Of a DNA stretch of 64,000 bases, positions 10,456 to 49,607 are shown piece by piece. The stretch's first letter is position 1. Each line of letters opens with the position of its first letter. The stretch comes from Aestuariivivens marinum (lineage in GTDB: Bacteria > Bacteroidota > Bacteroidia > Flavobacteriales > Flavobacteriaceae): the NCBI RefSeq assembly GCF_022662175.1, contig NZ_JAKMCR010000003.1, positions 124,001-188,000 on the forward strand, written 5' to 3'. The notes under the pieces were generated by a model. The model was given only the letters and a program-made list of their open reading frames with translations. It was not told where the DNA came from and searched no databases. Both the position numbers and the translations under genes were made by a program.

Positions 10456-10920
10456 ATGCAACGCATCTTAGTTTATTTAACATTGGTCGTTACCACCACC
10501 GTTTTTGGTCAGGTAGATGATACCTTAGACATTCGTAAAACAGTAGACACTTTTTTCGAAGGCTTCCATAAAGGGGATACCACACTAATGAAATCGGTTA
10601 TGATGGATAAAGTGGTATTACAAACCGCATTTAGAAATATGGAGGGGAAAGATGTTTTAAGAAATAACGGTAATCTATCTAAACTTTTGGAAACCATTGC
10701 CAACAGACCAGCCGACCAAAAATGGGATGAGCGACTATTGGATTACAGTATACAGGTAGATGGCAATATGGCCAATGCCTGGACACCATATGAGTTTTGG
10801 TTTAATGGGGAATTTAGTCACTGTGGTGTGAATTCCTTTCAGCTATTTAAGGATGGCGACCAATGGAAAATTATTTATTTGATAGATACGAGGCGACGTA
10901 AGGGTTGTTTGCAGGAGTGA
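10456..10920 (+). CDS. Secreted NTF2-like (SnoaL/DUF4440-type) protein
   Basis: A 154-residue protein with a signal peptide (hydrophobic 'ILVYLTLVVTTTVFG', cleavage likely before 'QVDD'). One NTF2-like fold follows: an early helix 'IRKTVDTFFEGFHKGD', a middle 'VDGNMANAWTPYEFWFNG' and an end 'FQLFKDGDQWKIIYLIDTRR'. Such proteins are small ligand-binding or enzyme domains with no single function. The ATG at 10456 was preferred over one at 10417 because the signal peptide begins there. It is divergent from panB and convergent with the TonB-type pseudogene. Confidence 0.82.
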   Translation: MQRILVYLTLVVTTTVFGQVDDTLDIRKTVDTFFEGFHKGDTTLMKSVMMDKVVLQTAFRNMEGKDVLRNNGNLSKLLETIANRPADQKWDERLLDYSIQVDGNMANAWTPYEFWFNGEFSHCGVNSFQLFKDGDQWKIIYLIDTRRRKGCLQE

Positions 10921-10976
10921 TTTTTAAAAACACTTTTTTTAACTCTAATATTCGTTGTAGCTAGTTTTTTTCATTT

Positions 10977-11371
10977 CTAGCTCTTAGTTTCTTTAAGCCT
11001 TTTTCGTTTTTGTTTTTCGGTCTGTATTGCAAAAATAATCGGTAAAGAAAACCTTGGACTGACTGGTTTTTCATTTAAACTAGGTGGTTCTAATTGTGGT
11101 ATCATTTTTATTATTCGTATTGCTTCATTTTCAAAAACGGGATGAGAGCCTCTTGCTTTTATATCTACAATCTGTCCTTCTTCGTTAATTGTGAATTGAG
11201 TAAGAACACGCACTTTGTCTCCACCTTTATATTTTAGACTATGGCTATACTATCAATTCTGTTTAAATTTTGATTTTCAGTGACAGATTTTTCAATAATA
11301 CTCGGGTCGATTTGAGAATTGATATATGATATGGTCAACAGTAATAAAAGCAATGTTATATATTTTTTCAT
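10977..11371 (-). pseudogene. TonB C-terminal-domain secreted protein, frameshifted
   Basis: From the ATG at 11371 the frame gives a signal peptide ('MKKYITLLLLLLTISYINSQ') and about 25 more residues, then hits TAA at 11236-11234. The neighbouring frame reads on as 'LKYKGGDKVRVLTQFTINEE' and continues through 'IVDIKARGSHPVFENEAIRI' and 'SPRFSLPIIFAIQ', a recognisable TonB_C domain. It ends at 10977. Restoring one base just before the stop joins both parts into a protein of about 131 residues. The downstream frame has only a GTG (11213) as a possible restart, without a signal peptide. This is either a real frameshift or a sequencing error. The intact protein would be a short periplasmic energy-transducer-like protein. 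Confidence 0.75.
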
Positions 11372-11379
11372 TGTTGTCG

Positions 11380-12302
11380 TTAGTTTTTACCCTTCTGGTT
11401 TATACTGAAGTTAAAAACATCAGGTCTTGAATAATGGCCAACGACATCGAACATTCGTTTGGCTTTAATAATATCCTGAAGATCAATATCCGCATATAAG
11501 ATGCCTTCTTTGGCCTCTAATGGTCCTGCGATTAGCTTTCCATTAGGTGAAATTATAGCGCTGTTGCCAACGTTAATCCATTCTCTTCCGTCAGGGTATA
11601 GATTCTTAAATTCGTATTCTTCAGGAATGTTATCCATTTTTAGAGGCATACACGCACTGATCACAAATAATCCTCCTTCTCTTGCGACGTGCTGCATAGT
11701 TTGAATCCAATTTGGGCTTTTGTCCCAAGTTGGAGAAATCAATATTTGTGTTCCTAACTCATAGATGGCGTTTCTGGCTAAGGGCATGAAGTTTTCCCAG
11801 CAAATTAAACCAGCGATCTTTCCAACAGATGTATCATAGCATGAAAGAGTGCTTCCATCTCCTTGAGACCATATTAAGCGTTCGCCACCTGTTGGAATTA
11901 ATTTTCTATGTTTTCCTAAAATAATTCCATTCTTATCTATGAAAAGTAAACTATTGTATAGACTTGAGTTGCTTGTTTCGGAGTTACGTTCATGCATACC
12001 AATAACCACATTAACTTTAGCCGCTTTAGCCGCTTCACAAAGTTTATCGGTAGAGTTATCTGGGACGGAAATCGCATTTTCTACAAGCCTTAAATAAAGT
12101 TCATTTAATTCAGCTCCTTTGCTATTAGGAATAAGCCAGACCCAGTCTGGATAACCAGAAATAAACACTTCCGGAAAACTATTAACCCGGCACCCTTTTG
12201 GCCAGCCTCTTTAATGGCTCCGCAAGCCTTTTCAATAGTTTTTTCTTTGTTTAAGAAAACAGGTGAAAGTTGTGCAGCAGCTACCTTTATATTTTTTCTC
12301 AT
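11380..12302 (-). pseudogene. Nitrilase (carbon-nitrogen hydrolase), frameshifted
   Basis: The N-terminus (from 12302, 'KVAAAQLSPVFLNKEKTIEK') runs in frame to 'GAGLIVF' and then goes out of register. The other frame resumes as 'VFISGYPDWVW' and continues to 11380. At 12171-12179 the minus strand reads GTTTTCCGG. One extra C would give Val-Phe-Pro-Glu-Val, the normal nitrilase motif carrying the catalytic Glu. The rest is intact: Lys in 'GKHRKLIPT', Cys in 'GLICWENFMPLAR'. Restored length is about 307 residues, normal for a branch-1 nitrilase that turns nitriles into acids. As read, the catalytic Glu is lost. It lies 8 bases from another frameshifted gene. Confidence 0.85.
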
Positions 12303-44270: not shown

Positions 44271-45596
44271 TTGAAAAAACTAGCACTACACTGGAAGATT
44301 ATTATTGGAATGGTTCTGGGAATCATTTTTGGCTTCATTATGAATACTATTATTGGTGGAAAAGAATTTGTGACCGATTGGATAGCCCCATTTGGCACTA
44401 TTTTCATTAATCTTTTAAAGTTAATCGCTGTCCCTTTAATTTTGGCATCATTAATCAAGGGAATTTCAGATTTAAAAGATATCTCTAAAATAAAATCCAT
44501 GGGTTTAAGAACTATTGGAATATATATAACCACTACTTTGATAGCCATTGTTATAGGCTTAGGTATTGTAAATGCTATTAAGCCTGGTAATGGTATGCCT
44601 CAAGACACTATCGAAAAGATTAAATTAAAATACGAGAATGATGAAGGAGTAACAGGTAAACTAGTGGAAGCATCTGCTCAAAAAGATGCTGGGCCATTAC
44701 GTGCGTTAGTTGATATTTTTCCAAGTAATATATTTAAGTCTTTTTCAGAAGCTTCTATGTTACAGATCATCTTTTTTGCTTTGTTTGTTGGTATTTGCTT
44801 GTTGTTAATTGGTGAACGAAAAGCCAAACCCCTGATAGATTTTTTCGATTCCCTTAACGAAGTAGTAATGAAAATGGTGGATTTAATTATGCTATTTGCC
44901 CCTTATGCGGTTTTTGCCTTACTGGCCAATGTTATTATAGCTTTTGATGATACTGAAATATTAGTAAAACTTTTATATTATGCTCTGTGCGTTGTTGGAG
45001 GATTGATATTAATGATACTATTTTATCTTATTTTAGTTGGGGTATTTGTGAAAAAATCACCTTTGTGGTTTATTAAAGAGATTAGTCCCGCACAGTTATT
45101 AGCATTTTCTACTAGTAGTAGTGCTGCTACATTACCTGTAACAATGGAACGTGTTGAAGAACACTTGGGAGTTGATAAAGAAGTTTCGGGTTTTGTTTTG
45201 CCAGTTGGAGCTACTGTTAACATGGATGGCACCAGTCTATATCAGGGTATAGCTGCCGTTTTTATAATGCAGGTTATTTGGCCCGAGGGATTGACCTTTA
45301 CCAACCAAATGGTAATTGTTTTAACTGCCTTATTGGCATCTATTGGAAGTGCTGCGGTACCAAGTGCAGGTATGGTCATGTTGGTTATAGTATTGGAATC
45401 TATTGGATTTCCAGCAGAATTGTTGCCCATTGGTTTAGCACTTATTTTTGCAGTAGATAGACCGTTGGATATGTGCAGGACTGTAGTAAACGTTACAGGA
45501 GATGCTACAGTTTCCATGTTGGTTGCCAAATCTTTAGATAAGATACATGAGCCGAAGCCTAAAGAATGGGATGATCATTACGATGAAGTGAAGTAA
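44271..45596 (+). CDS. Dicarboxylate/amino acid:cation symporter (DAACS family)
   Basis: A 441-residue inner-membrane transporter of the GltP/DctA/GltPh family that imports glutamate, aspartate or C4-dicarboxylates with Na+ or H+. The re-entrant loop HP1 serine-rich motif 'LLAFSTSSSAATLPVTMERVEEHLG' and the 'VNMDGTSLYQGIAAVFI' (NMDGT) motif of TM7 are intact, as are 'SIGSAAVPSAGMVMLV' of HP2 and 'DRPLDMCRTVVNVTGDA' of TM8. Translation starts at TTG (44271). The gene precedes the ATP-grasp gene by 23 bases and may share its transcript. Confidence 0.95.
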   Translation: MKKLALHWKIIIGMVLGIIFGFIMNTIIGGKEFVTDWIAPFGTIFINLLKLIAVPLILASLIKGISDLKDISKIKSMGLRTIGIYITTTLIAIVIGLGIVNAIKPGNGMPQDTIEKIKLKYENDEGVTGKLVEASAQKDAGPLRALVDIFPSNIFKSFSEASMLQIIFFALFVGICLLLIGERKAKPLIDFFDSLNEVVMKMVDLIMLFAPYAVFALLANVIIAFDDTEILVKLLYYALCVVGGLILMILFYLILVGVFVKKSPLWFIKEISPAQLLAFSTSSSAATLPVTMERVEEHLGVDKEVSGFVLPVGATVNMDGTSLYQGIAAVFIMQVIWPEGLTFTNQMVIVLTALLASIGSAAVPSAGMVMLVIVLESIGFPAELLPIGLALIFAVDRPLDMCRTVVNVTGDATVSMLVAKSLDKIHEPKPKEWDDHYDEVK

Positions 45597-45619: not shown

Positions 45620-46657
45620 ATGAACGTATGTTTTATAATGTACCCATGGGGTGACATTAATCCAGATACAGATTCATCCCTTGCGCTTATTAAAGAGTGT
45701 GCAAAAAGGGGACATGGCGTTGCGATGTGCACGCCAGCTAATTTAACCATTCGAAATAGTGTAACCAATGCATTTTGTACAGTTATTAATAGAATGGAAA
45801 AGGTACCCAGCAGCCAAAAAGTATTTTATAATAAAGCAAATTTACGTGAGGAGATGTTACCTTTGGCGGGGTTTGATGCCATATTTTTTAGAGCCAATCC
45901 ACCTTTGGATCCTATTATGTTGAATTTCTTGGATTCAGTAAAAGATGATGTCTTTATCATCAATTCACTGGAAGGTATGCGGGAGGCCAACAACAAACTC
46001 TATACCGCTGCCTTTGGTGATGCTCACAGCAATATTATACCAGCGACCCATGTATCAAAGAACAAGAAGTATTTAATCAAGCAGATTAAAGAATCCAAAG
46101 CCGATAAAATGATTTTAAAGCCATTGAATGGCTTTGGAGGATCGGGTGTTATATTGATTGAAAAGTCAGCGATGAGCAATATTAATTCGTTATTGGACTT
46201 TTATATTAATAGTGGTGATGGTGATTCCAATTACGTTATTTTACAGGATTATATTGAAGGTGCCGATCAAGGAGATATACGTATTCTTTTATTAAATGGC
46301 GAACCCATTGGAGCTATGAGGCGGGTTCCTGGTTCTGATGACCACCGTTCAAATGTTTCTGCTGGGGGTAGTGTGCAAAGACATAATTTAACTAAGGCTG
46401 AAAAAGCCTTATGCAAACAAATTGGCCCTAAGTTGGTTAATGATGGTCTTTATTTTGTAGGCATAGATGTGATTGGAGGCAAGTTAGTTGAGGTTAATGT
46501 GATGTCACCTGGAGGTATTACTTATATCAATAAGGTATATAAACCAAAGATTAAGATTGAAGAAAAAGTGATTGACTTTTTAGAAAGTAAGGTATTGGAT
46601 AAACTGCAAGCCTTCGATAGGCGCGCACGATTGCGAAAAACAGTAGAGGACGCTTAG
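45620..46657 (+). CDS. GshB-like ATP-grasp amide ligase
   Basis: A 345-residue ATP-grasp enzyme that resembles prokaryotic glutathione synthetase throughout. It has an N-terminal pre-ATP-grasp domain ('CFIMYPWGDINPDTDSSLAL', 'AIFFRANPPLDP'), the ATP lid 'MILKPLNGFGGSGVILIE', 'GDIRILLLNGEPIGAMRRVPG', and the Mg-binding end 'GLYFVGIDVIGGKLVEVNVMSPGG'. GshB joins glycine to gamma-Glu-Cys. No gshA lies here and the cell has bshA, so the true product may be another peptide or amide. It is followed by an amidohydrolase and a metallopeptidase, the pairing that makes this block interesting. Fold is certain, product is not. Confidence 0.88.
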   Translation: MNVCFIMYPWGDINPDTDSSLALIKECAKRGHGVAMCTPANLTIRNSVTNAFCTVINRMEKVPSSQKVFYNKANLREEMLPLAGFDAIFFRANPPLDPIMLNFLDSVKDDVFIINSLEGMREANNKLYTAAFGDAHSNIIPATHVSKNKKYLIKQIKESKADKMILKPLNGFGGSGVILIEKSAMSNINSLLDFYINSGDGDSNYVILQDYIEGADQGDIRILLLNGEPIGAMRRVPGSDDHRSNVSAGGSVQRHNLTKAEKALCKQIGPKLVNDGLYFVGIDVIGGKLVEVNVMSPGGITYINKVYKPKIKIEEKVIDFLESKVLDKLQAFDRRARLRKTVEDA

Positions 46658-46786
46658 TATAAATAGGTAGTTTACAGTTTGCAGTCTCATTTGTAATGAA
46701 AAAAATTAAAGTAATAACAAGATTGAAAATGAAGATTGAGAGATAGCATTACGCATAGAATCCATAATAACACAATAACCTAAAAA

Positions 46787-47608
46787 ATGAGTGTAAAAAT
46801 AACAATCACCCACCCATTAGTTTCTGTAGATTGGCTTAACGAGAACATTAATGCCGATAATTTGGTTGTTTTGGATGCAACCATGAACAAGCCATTAGAC
46901 GCTTCCCAAAAACAAATTCCTAACGCTCGTTATTTTGATATAAAAAATAGATTTAGTAATACCACTGATCCTTTTCCAAACACTTTTCCGTCAACTGAGT
47001 TATTTCAGGAAGAGTCTAGGCTATTAGGAATTTGTAATGATAGCGTTATAGTGGTGTATGATGACAAAGGCATTTATTCCAGTGCCCGTGTTTGGTGGCT
47101 ATTTAAGGCTTTTGGGTATGATAATGTAGCTGTTTTAAATGGTGGTTTTCCTGCTTGGACAAAGGCTAGTTATAGGACAGAACCCTTGCAGTTATATAAT
47201 GGTGAAACAGGTGATTTTACACCTAATCTTCAGCCTAACCTGATGAAGTTTTTTAACGACATAAAAGCTATTTCGAAAAATAAGAGCCATCAAATAATTG
47301 ATGCTCGTTCTGTAGGTCGGTTTAATTGTGAAGAACCCGAACCCAGAGCTGGGTTACGAATGGGAATTATTCCCAATTCAGTTAATTTACCCTACACAGA
47401 TTTGTTGGAAGATGGTATGTTAAAGGACGAAAACCTCTTAAAGCAAAAATTTGACCAATTGGCCGATACAGATGATCCACTAGTGTTTTCTTGTGGTTCA
47501 GGAATAACGGCTTGTGTATTGGCATTAGGTGCCGAAATTTCTGGTTATAATAATATTTCTGTGTATGATGGGTCTTGGACAGAATGGGGAACTTTGGTTA
47601 AAGAATAA
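46787..47608 (+). CDS. Two-domain sulfurtransferase (3-mercaptopyruvate/thiosulfate type)
   Basis: 273 residues with two rhodanese domains. The first (residues ~10-130, 'VLDATMNKP', 'YDDKGIYSSARVWWLFKAFGY') lacks a catalytic Cys. The second (~165-270) carries Cys236 in the loop 'FSCGSGITACVLALG', the CGSG-type loop of mercaptopyruvate sulfurtransferases rather than the CRxGxR of thiosulfate rhodaneses. It would pass sulfane sulfur to a thiol or cyanide. It ends 2 bases before the next gene, so it is translated from the same mRNA as the amidohydrolase and metallopeptidase. Confidence 0.92.
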   Translation: MSVKITITHPLVSVDWLNENINADNLVVLDATMNKPLDASQKQIPNARYFDIKNRFSNTTDPFPNTFPSTELFQEESRLLGICNDSVIVVYDDKGIYSSARVWWLFKAFGYDNVAVLNGGFPAWTKASYRTEPLQLYNGETGDFTPNLQPNLMKFFNDIKAISKNKSHQIIDARSVGRFNCEEPEPRAGLRMGIIPNSVNLPYTDLLEDGMLKDENLLKQKFDQLADTDDPLVFSCGSGITACVLALGAEISGYNNISVYDGSWTEWGTLVKE

Positions 47609-47610
47609 GT

Positions 47611-48441
47611 ATGGAAAAACTTTCAGTACAACAAATTATTCAAAATATAAAGGACGAAATAATTTTTGAAGCTGTTGCTTCGGATTATTCATTTACTATA
47701 AAGATTTCAGCCTATGTCCCTTATGCTTGTGGTGCAATACATGATGGACATCAATTTAGAAAAGAGCTATGGGAACCTTGTCTGCATACTGAATATGAGC
47801 GGTGGTACGAAGAAGACCCAGAAACTAAGAATATGGTGCAATCGCTTCCCATCGTTATTGCTGGTTGTGATTCACGATTTGAATACGATCTAAATAGGGG
47901 GCCAGATGAGGCTGTTTTTGTAACGGCTTGGGGCAAACAGTTATGGAAATATCCACTAACAGAAGCAATCATTTCTAAAAGCCTTGAGAAGCATGCAAAT
48001 TTTTATAAAGTAGTGCATGCCCTAATTGAAACTTTGGAATCTAAATTTGGGTTTTGTACGGTTTACGATATGCACAGCTATAATTGGAAACGATGGGATA
48101 GAGAAGTGCCGACTTGGAATTTGGGTACTAGCAATATTGATAATCAACGATTTGGAAATGCTATTGAGCAATGGCGGCTAAGCCTATCGGAAATACAATT
48201 TCCCAATGGAATTAAATCCACTTCAAAGATAAACGATACCTTTCAAGGCAATGGTTATTTTTTAAAATATATTACCCAAAATTTTAAAAATACCTTAGTT
48301 TTGGCAACCGAAATAGCCAAGGTGTACTGCGATGAATATGAACAAATTATATTCCCCGAAGTGGTTTCGACGGGAGAAAGGGAATTGAAGGAACGTATTC
48401 CCAAGCACGCACTGGAAACGTATAATATTTTTAAACCTTAA
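47611..48441 (+). CDS. N-formylglutamate amidohydrolase-fold protein
   Basis: A 276-residue member of the FGase family (zinc amidohydrolase fold related to M14 carboxypeptidases). It has 'VPYACGAIHDGHQFRKEL', 'CDSRFEYDLNRGPDEAVF' and 'TVYDMHSYNWKR', which carry the likely metal-binding Asp/Glu/His. The C-terminal ~65 residues are helical. Classical HutG-type enzymes hydrolyse N-formylglutamate in histidine breakdown, and hutI does occur at 59 kb. The conserved neighbours here (ATP-grasp ligase, DUF1704 peptidase) suggest another amide substrate. Gaps of 2 and 5 bases to its neighbours show a tight operon. Confidence 0.85.
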   Translation: MEKLSVQQIIQNIKDEIIFEAVASDYSFTIKISAYVPYACGAIHDGHQFRKELWEPCLHTEYERWYEEDPETKNMVQSLPIVIAGCDSRFEYDLNRGPDEAVFVTAWGKQLWKYPLTEAIISKSLEKHANFYKVVHALIETLESKFGFCTVYDMHSYNWKRWDREVPTWNLGTSNIDNQRFGNAIEQWRLSLSEIQFPNGIKSTSKINDTFQGNGYFLKYITQNFKNTLVLATEIAKVYCDEYEQIIFPEVVSTGERELKERIPKHALETYNIFKP

Positions 48442-48446
48442 GCTTA

Positions 48447-49607
48447 ATGTTGTTGGATAAGCATGTAGATTATAAAACACTCTTTGCAATTGATACTAAA
48501 ATTGATGCTTTAGTTAAGCAAATAGAGTTACTGGCTTATGTTAATCCCATAAATATTGAAACCGAAAAGATTCGTTTTTTTTCATCAAAGTATTTAACCG
48601 ATCCTGTTTTTAAATATCCTGAAATAAATTTTGACAGGTTTAAATTGCACAGGGAGTTGTTTATACAACCCTTAGAGCAAATTGAAGATACAGCTATTAA
48701 AAATTTATACGAGGATATTATATACAGCTATTCTGGATTAATTCAATGCATTGAAACCATTGGAAATGGTAAAAAATTCTATTATAACTGTCTACATTGT
48801 TTCGGCACGCCTACTGAAACAGATGTGGAAAATGCAAAGTTTATTCTTCATTTTGAAGATGAAGATATAAAAACAGAGCCTTTTGTTCCTAAATATTCTG
48901 CAAAAGAAGCCGAGGTCTTTTTTAGGGACTTTTCTAAACGCTATGACTTTAGTTATGAGGTAAAGCATTCCGATAAGATTTCGGCTATTGCTATGGTTTT
49001 AAATAATGTAAGAACATTAGTGTTAAATAGCAATTATACCTTTTCAGATAACGAAATAGCAGTATTAACCAATCACGAAATAGGGGTACACATGGTTACC
49101 ACTATGAACGGAATATTACATCCGTTAAAAATATTTTCACACGGATTTCCTAATTATGAAGAGACTCAGGAAGGGCTGGCCGTTTTTGCTGAATATATGA
49201 GCAATAATCTTACTGTAAAGCGCTTGAAGGAATTGGCGTACCGGGTAATAGCTGTTGATAGTTTAGCCAAAGGCTATTCTTTTTCAAGAACATTTAGGTT
49301 GTTGCACAATCAATATAATTTGGATAAGGAAAATGCCTTTTATATAACAGTACGTGCTCATCGTGGAGGAGGATTTACTAAGGATTACTTGTATTTAACA
49401 GGACTTAAAAAAATCTATAACTATTACCATGAAGGGAAGGATTTAAGCCTGCTTTTAACGGGAAAGGTGTCTTTGGAATATGTTGATGAAATTCAGTCAT
49501 TAATCGATAAAAAATTAGCAGTGCCTTCAAAACACATTACCGATGCTTATGCCCAAAACAAAAACACCAACAAAACCATAGATTTTATTTTAAGTAGTTT
49601 GAAGTAA
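48447..49607 (+). CDS. DUF1704 / QEGLA-motif metallopeptidase
   Basis: A 386-residue protein of the DUF1704 family, annotated in bacteria as 'flavohemoglobin expression-modulating QEGLA motif protein'. The HExxxH zinc motif is His210-Glu211-Ile-Gly-Val-His215 ('LTNHEIGVHMVTT') and the name-giving motif is Gln241-Glu242-Gly-Leu-Ala245 ('EETQEGLAVFAEY'), whose Glu should be the third ligand. Eukaryotic relatives MATCAP1/2 are tubulin carboxypeptidases that remove a C-terminal residue. No signal peptide is present, so it acts in the cytoplasm. It is the last gene of the unit and converges on a DCC oxidoreductase gene with 10 bases between stops. Confidence 0.88.
   Translation: MLLDKHVDYKTLFAIDTKIDALVKQIELLAYVNPINIETEKIRFFSSKYLTDPVFKYPEINFDRFKLHRELFIQPLEQIEDTAIKNLYEDIIYSYSGLIQCIETIGNGKKFYYNCLHCFGTPTETDVENAKFILHFEDEDIKTEPFVPKYSAKEAEVFFRDFSKRYDFSYEVKHSDKISAIAMVLNNVRTLVLNSNYTFSDNEIAVLTNHEIGVHMVTTMNGILHPLKIFSHGFPNYEETQEGLAVFAEYMSNNLTVKRLKELAYRVIAVDSLAKGYSFSRTFRLLHNQYNLDKENAFYITVRAHRGGGFTKDYLYLTGLKKIYNYYHEGKDLSLLLTGKVSLEYVDEIQSLIDKKLAVPSKHITDAYAQNKNTNKTIDFILSSLK

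Follow-up and report, generated by a model that had tools for sequence, protein, structure and literature searches.

What do a peptide ligase and two hydrolases do together when their genes lie side by side in the genome of Aestuariivivens marinum? We analyzed a 64,000-nucleotide stretch of contig NZ_JAKMCR010000003.1 (positions 124,001 to 188,000; hereafter the window), in which four plus-strand open reading frames (ORFs) encode a GshB-like ATP-grasp ligase (45620–46657), a 3-mercaptopyruvate-type sulfurtransferase (46787–47608), a metallo-amidohydrolase of the N-formylglutamate amidohydrolase fold (FGase, 47611–48441), and a DUF1704/QEGLA protein that resembles the zinc carboxypeptidase MATCAP (48447–49607). 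A sequence-only reading had taken all four as one block that may write and erase an amide-linked tag on a protein or peptide, as a counterpart of the tubulin tyrosination cycle, with an unusual thiol peptide as the main alternative. It had placed the genes correctly: an ORF check of the window returned the same coordinates and direction, with 2 bases between the sulfurtransferase and FGase genes and 5 bases between the FGase and MATCAP genes. Here, we report that the ligase, FGase and MATCAP genes are a conserved unit, and we favor, with moderate confidence, the explanation that they form a mobile three-enzyme module that builds and trims an amide-linked small peptide other than glutathione.

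The ligase, FGase and MATCAP genes form one conserved unit

We examined a sample of 148 Bacteroidota genomes, the window's own genome (G000) included. The DUF1704 family, PF08014, was found in 10 genomes, and a strong match to the ligase subfamily PRK12458 (at least 396 bits) was found in exactly the same 10. Nine of these carriers scored above the PRK12458 cut-off of 408. Among non-carriers, the best match (G076) reached 194 bits, and the remainder of the 61 genomes with any match stayed below 94 bits. The chance of such agreement under random spread is approximately 1e-15, a figure that ignores shared ancestry. FGase was detected in 22 of the 148 genomes, including nine of the ten carriers (the exception is G053). 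The ligase gene lay in the MATCAP cluster, at most four ORFs away, in all 10 carriers, and FGase was adjacent or fused to MATCAP in nine.

A second set consisted of the closest 80 of at least 570 relatives in named genomes, nearly all of them titled Flavobacteriia or its genera (one is titled solely 'Bacteroidia bacterium'). FGase directly preceded MATCAP at all 80 loci; the two ORFs, whose starts were assigned mechanically, overlapped in 29 and were at most 121 bases apart in 79. The ligase was found within five ORFs of MATCAP, on the same strand, at 76 loci; three of the four misses are cut by a contig end, and the fourth is locus L057. The linkage is far beyond chance and confirms the trio as one conserved unit. 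The sequence-only reading had itself proposed counting ligase and FGase genes near DUF1704, and the count does not refute it. Three genes of its four-gene block therefore stand, whereas the sulfurtransferase falls outside the conserved unit.

Published data lend independent support. In Photobacterium damselae RM-71, a comparison of 1% with 3% NaCl gave a 38.42-fold increase for A0J47_RS17020 (GshB) and a 27.51-fold increase for A0J47_RS17025 (QEGLA protein) (PMC10308900). That these two genes are neighbors is read from their locus tag numbers. COG3930 is the DUF1704 family. Clade-2-specific genes of Vibrio vulnificus include VV2_1203 (COG3930) as well as VV2_1204 (glutathione synthetase) (PMC3091676). 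The link between the two genes is not recognized in either source text, as far as the portions available to us extend. The P. damselae salt response offers a condition in which to seek the product. A joint mention of module genes in Zymomonas was set aside, as the available part of that text holds unrelated mentions (PMC4189746). Among the matches listed in literature searches on the trio, its parts and MATCAP, no description of the trio as one unit was found.

The three enzymes and their two lineages

The window ligase (345 aa) contains the Pfam domains GSH-S_ATP and GSH-S_N, and its best NCBIfam model is PRK12458 (451.8 bits, curated cut-off 408). Like E. coli GshB (1gsa), it carries both GshB domains and is homologous over its whole length, with 31 residues invariant across E. 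coli GshB and both groups of module ligases described below. By contrast, it is 32% identical to the E. coli enzyme, prefers PRK12458, and fails the glutathione-synthase equivalog TIGR01380 (238 bits against a cut-off of 299); moreover, its genome has no detected gshA, and strong PRK12458 matches coincide with MATCAP across the 148 genomes. Photobacterium ligases are 59–60% identical to it.

The window FGase (276 aa) matches PF05013 at 47.3 bits (cut-off 28.9) and has no match at E 0.001 to the HutG N-formylglutamate deformylase equivalog TIGR02017. In an alignment of 53 sequences, His44 of the HDGH motif (residues 44–47, 47740–47751) is invariant and His47 is at least 90% conserved, while SRFEYDLNR (residues 88–96, 47872–47898) and His155 within DMHSYN (residues 153–158, 48067–48084) are invariant. 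We take His44, His47 and His155 to be the metal ligands, and SRFEYDLNR presumably forms the substrate-carboxylate site, as in relatives. The AlphaFold model (pLDDT 92.7) matches the N-formylglutamate amidohydrolase 2q7s with a Z-score of 23.9 (root-mean-square deviation, rmsd, 2.5 over 237 residues), then 2odf (Z 21.3); metallocarboxypeptidases, succinylglutamate desuccinylase and a phage poly-gamma-glutamate hydrolase follow at Z 10–12. Thus, fold and PF05013 match are shared with 2q7s and 2odf, but the window protein is 14–18% identical to them, lacks a hutG equivalog match, and is tied to MATCAP.

The DUF1704 protein (386 aa) matches PF08014 at 327.2 bits (cut-off 27). It scores 310 bits on the QEGLA family TIGR02421, below the curated cut-off of 338.65, which a fused form at locus L015 passes (381.3 bits) and four type II proteins (see below) fail. 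Its HEIGVH motif (residues 210–215, 49074–49091) and the Glu242 of its QEG motif (residues 241–243, 49167–49175) align with the catalytic motifs of human MATCAP, the correspondence of Glu211 and Glu242 following from the motifs. The HExxxH residues His210, Glu211 and His215, and Glu242, all picked out in the sequence-only reading, proved invariant in both alignments examined (10 of 10 and 44 of 44 sequences); by analogy, Glu242 would be the third metal ligand. The AlphaFold model (pLDDT 91.4) superimposes on human MATCAP 7z5g with Z 24.8 and rmsd 3.0 over 293 of 386 residues, at 22% identity; the next fold matches are a DUF885 protein (Z 16.0) and M32 carboxypeptidases (Z 11–12). With the MATCAP/TMCP tubulin carboxypeptidases (PF08014; KIAA0895L, 7z5g, 7z6s), it shares the fold, HExxxH plus the Glu in (Q/E)EG, and an RxxRG...KDxxYL stretch (RxxRGGGxTKDxxYL, residues 303–317, 49353–49397, largely common to human MATCAP). 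It differs in its setting: a bacterium has no microtubules, and the gene lies with those for a GshB-like ligase and an FGase. The bacterial family is labeled, uninformatively, 'flavohemoglobin expression-modulating QEGLA motif protein' and its partner 'glutathione synthase'. The trio sets a eukaryotic tubulin-modifying family in a bacterial context, and the joint unit with FGase, in genomes mostly without detected gshA, gives DUF1704 and the ligase a joint function that can be tested.

The module falls into two types. Type I, which includes the window, is ordered ligase-FGase-MATCAP, and type II FGase-MATCAP-ligase (at L021 without FGase); the type II ligase is approximately 30% identical to that of type I. 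In a tree of 22 MATCAP domains (midpoint root, with a tool warning of long branches meeting), nine type II domains from Bacteroidota and rhizobia formed a clade with 100/100 support, while 11 type I rows (window, Flavobacteriia, L015, Vibrionaceae) were grouped at merely 81/76 and two solitary forms lay on a long branch. Hybrid operons in genomes G103 and G118 combine both ligases with a single type I FGase and a MATCAP of type II (L016:8528–14224 and L017:6478–11378), so redundancy between the ligases is improbable. Four type I loci encode an FGase-MATCAP fusion: L015 (667 aa), L104 (663 aa), L105 (665 aa) and L113 (662 aa), as judged by Pfam for the first three and by BLAST for L113.

Protein searches of plasmid records returned 127 records with a MATCAP relative, mostly rhizobial. 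We opened 12 regions picked for variety, from 11 plasmid records and the single phage record found, and searched them by tblastn with window and type II proteins. FGase, MATCAP and ligase occur together in eight: six rhizobial (two strains of Sinorhizobium meliloti, Pararhizobium, Aminobacter, Shinella and Ensifer) and two from Photobacterium. Three scans of viral contigs gave no DUF1704 or FGase relative, and the scan with the ligase alignment gave two distant ATP-grasp matches. The trio appears to be a horizontally mobile module.

Type II MATCAP proteins carry approximately 235 extra residues at their front (10777–11481 on the minus strand of L016). Pfam searches of four such fronts at E 0.1 gave no match for three and, for L021, one chance-like match to an arthropod neurohormone family (E 0.043). 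Alignment of the nine fronts with FGase by hhalign, on the other hand, gave a probability of 93.4% (E 2.6e-7, 204 columns), against 0.1% and 0.2% for the MATCAP and ligase control alignments. Most of HDGH and SRFEYDLNR falls in gaps of this alignment, and the HxxH motif is absent from all nine fronts. The residue facing His155 is W in four, Y in one, D in two and G in two; that facing His44 is His in two (L102 and L110) and F or Y in seven; and opposite Glu234 only L021 has Glu, the other eight having a different residue. To judge from these profiles, the front is a degenerate FGase domain, identified here, and it is probably not catalytic because the metal site is incomplete in all nine. Type II clusters mostly keep a separate FGase as well. 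The degenerate domain offers a direct handle on how both hydrolases cooperate. Sequence searches for solved relatives returned none at E 1 for this domain and none at E 0.1 for the FGase profile, although the FGase fold is known. L021 (8879–10720, in G053), the carrier without FGase, has the sole front of the nine that keeps a Glu opposite the catalytic Glu234.

What the module may build and trim

In GshB-type ligases, ATP activates a carboxylate, to which an amine is then joined; the carboxypeptidase family trims from the C-terminal side, and FGase-type amidohydrolases cleave an amide next to an acidic residue. In the explanation we favor, a small acceptor, probably of glutamyl type, would receive an amino acid (or amine) on its carboxylate through the ATP-grasp ligase. 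From this product, the MATCAP-type zinc carboxypeptidase would remove a C-terminal residue. The FGase-fold amidohydrolase would cut an amide at a residue whose carboxylate(s) it recognizes, much as its relatives act on N-formyl-glutamate. Both hydrolases would act as one unit, whether encoded side by side, fused, or in the form of a MATCAP with the degenerate FGase domain accompanied by an FGase. In sum, the module would tune how much of the peptide is present, or recycle it, for example when salt falls; the induction at low salt would fit a product, or a glutamate pool, that needs adjustment under such a condition. The pairing of a single writer with two joined erasers points to control over how much of one product is present, or how long it is. 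We favor a small peptide because the ligase is GshB-like and enzymes of the FGase family act on small N-acyl amino acids, and also because the trio spans Bacteroidota, Alphaproteobacteria and Gammaproteobacteria, apparently without a protein target that travels with it. The product itself would probably be glutamyl-type. Substrate, reactions, their order and physiology are proposed here by analogy with known relatives. If so, bacteria seem to own an unexplored system that builds and trims a small peptide or tag.

Several observations weigh against this explanation. The trio is not obligatory: no FGase was found anywhere in the G053 genome, the fused FGase-MATCAP of Vibrio HDW18 has no ligase found within 7 kb, and a MATCAP relative stands alone in three of the 12 opened regions (Pseudoalteromonas, Aeromonas and an unverified Pseudomonas phage record). 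At L057, where the contig stops 2.4 kb upstream of FGase, other genes take the place of the ligase. The 80 loci are biased to close kin. As to glutathione, the window ligase passes the glutathione-synthase equivalog PRK05246 (281.4 bits against a cut-off of 272), and one carrier, G130, has a PF04107 match (a GCS2 protein). A further gshA family, PF08886, gave no match in a search without a positive control, which says nothing. BshC, present in all 10 carriers, was the sole bacillithiol gene searched. With gamma-Glu-Cys supplied from elsewhere, the ligase might still carry out true GshB chemistry.

A bolder variant deserves attention, unlikely as we judge it: a self-contained bacterial peptide-tag cycle, in which the ligase would write a residue on a peptide or protein end and a two-headed complex of FGase and MATCAP would read and erase it. 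A live FGase, or the degenerate FGase domain acting as a substrate clamp or partner, would pair with MATCAP. If true, eukaryotic tubulin carboxypeptidases would have their origin in the eraser part of a bacterial cycle of this kind.

Closer to what the sequence-only reading had proposed, the ligase might add a residue to the C-terminus or a side chain of a protein, and MATCAP, with FGase, might remove it, in analogy to tubulin tyrosination. Protein modifiers, for example RimK and the tubulin-tyrosine ligase TTL, are found among the ATP-grasp families, the genes for writer and eraser are linked, and the MATCAP relative keeps its catalytic residues. Its human relatives are described as tubulin carboxypeptidases and deglutamylases in the part of the literature available to us (PMC10499314). 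The kinship to MATCAP that had been read from the sequence was thus upheld by the close fold match and the conserved catalytic residues, while the counterpart of the tubulin cycle, and the protein tag, found no support. The ligase belongs to the GshB group and has no match to the TTL profile PF03133 at E 0.001 (the type II ligase of L016 reaches merely E 0.012). Furthermore, the cluster contains no conserved acceptor candidate (ORFs under 60 aa were not looked at), and modules in Bacteroidota, Alphaproteobacteria and Gammaproteobacteria have no traveling target, which a small substrate would explain more easily. The one candidate considered as tag acceptor was a TerB-like protein of approximately 108 residues (for example L045:8771–9100, with a weak TerB match in L019). 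It was rejected: it occurs at just 34 of the 80 loci, all type I (as a separate protein at 24 and as a fusion with the sulfurtransferase at 10), visual inspection shows no conservation of its tail, and it has no match in the window. Overall, we consider a protein-tag cycle akin to tubulin tyrosination a possibility, but a rather unlikely one.

Next, the module might serve an unusual glutathione metabolism, with a genuine second glutathione synthetase and peptidases that salvage imported glutathione or its conjugates. Homology to GshB over the whole length, the 31 residues invariant between E. coli GshB and both module ligase groups, and the score on PRK05246 speak for it. Against it, gshA was absent from nine of the 10 carriers by PF04107, the window's own genome included, and from all 10 by PF04262, in searches whose positive controls were detected; by both families, the gshA elsewhere in the genome that ordinary glutathione would call for, a point raised in the sequence-only reading, was thus not found. 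In G076, GshB is followed two genes on by a GCS2 protein, likely GshA, and scores merely 194 bits on PRK12458. Three type II ligases that were scanned failed both equivalog models, TIGR01380 and PRK05246. Because BshC is found in 10 of 10 carriers, they probably make bacillithiol. Ordinary glutathione is an unlikely product, since no gshA was found in the window's genome and bshC was, and we regard the wider glutathione explanation as doubtful.

The ligase could also modify, and the hydrolases degrade, an external acidic peptide or antibiotic, for detoxification or scavenging. The patchy spread (10 of 148 genomes), the plasmid or megaplasmid location, and the presence or absence of the module within one genus and within V. 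vulnificus (PMC3091676, as far as its available text goes) are consistent with such a role. No transporter travels with the trio, however: the upstream symporter is resident and unmatched in the 12 plasmid and phage regions (signal peptides were not searched). We hold this explanation to be improbable. Finally, a thiol-peptide pathway with the sulfurtransferase taking part is very improbable, for although the gene sits inside the operon in the window and at 49 of the 80 closest loci, it is missing from seven of the 10 phylum-sample loci, unmatched in the 12 regions, and paired with the symporter in the absence of the trio in G029 and G107. The sulfurtransferase thus no longer argues for a thiol peptide, as it had been taken to do; the small-metabolite alternative stands on other grounds.

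Resident neighbors and related genes

The upstream neighbor of the ligase gene is a GltP-like symporter of the SDF family (44271–45596, plus strand), which ends 23 bases before the ligase start and scores below the GltP equivalog cut-off of NCBIfam. The double-rhodanese sulfurtransferase is closest to the NCBIfam model for 3-mercaptopyruvate sulfurtransferase (212.8 bits, below the cut-off of 250). The symporter is found at six of 10 phylum-sample loci and 59 of 80, the sulfurtransferase at three of 10 and 49 of 80, and neither was matched by tblastn in the 12 opened regions. A convergent gene ends 10 bases past the MATCAP gene.

We examined eight genomes of the same family without PF08014, of which three have a close symporter (G029, G107 and G084; 59–63% identity). 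G029, from the same genus as carrier G088, and G107 have no PF08014, FGase or strong PRK12458 match anywhere. They keep the symporter and sulfurtransferase genes side by side, with a DCC gene further on, and the ligase, TerB-like, FGase and MATCAP genes are missing between the genes of the symporter and sulfurtransferase region. G084 has no sulfurtransferase beside its symporter. The symporter and the sulfurtransferase are therefore bystanders, resident genes around which the trio was gained or lost, and they may be a pair of their own, since two of the three non-carriers that have a close symporter carry them next to each other. Two candidate roles were rejected on the evidence of G029 and G107: that of the sulfurtransferase as a core part of a thiol pathway, and glutamate uptake by the symporter as a part of the system. 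The latter was also rejected because G053 keeps an oxidase-aroC-symporter row without trio-like genes, which lie elsewhere.

Divergent, solitary DUF1704 genes are found in Pseudoalteromonas and Aeromonas (L106:6710–7990 and L107:6692–8029), with no ligase or FGase nearby; that of Pseudoalteromonas adjoins a DUF3081 gene. These solitary genes may do something else. The unverified record of Pseudomonas phage Y1 contains a DUF1704-like stretch (L103:7701–8720), which may be phage or host DNA.

A second ligase/hydrolase cluster was noted in two Bacteroidota genomes, G119 and G124 (L142:5220–9351 and L143:5094–9192), with genes for a C39-like peptidase, an RLAN/RimK-type ATP-grasp protein, a GCS2 ligase and an FGase in a row. 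It resembles the trio in that an ATP-grasp ligase, a peptidase (here of another fold) and an FGase are encoded together, but it differs in the RLAN/RimK ligase family, in a cysteine peptidase in place of MATCAP, and in the presence of a GCS2 ligase. Amidoligase systems of this sort are reportedly predicted in a survey that Iyer and colleagues published in 2009. In Vibrionaceae (L104, L105 and L113), a divergent LysR regulator gene and a DUF413 (MaoP-type) gene lie directly upstream of the module, and the two are a possible regulator pair for it.

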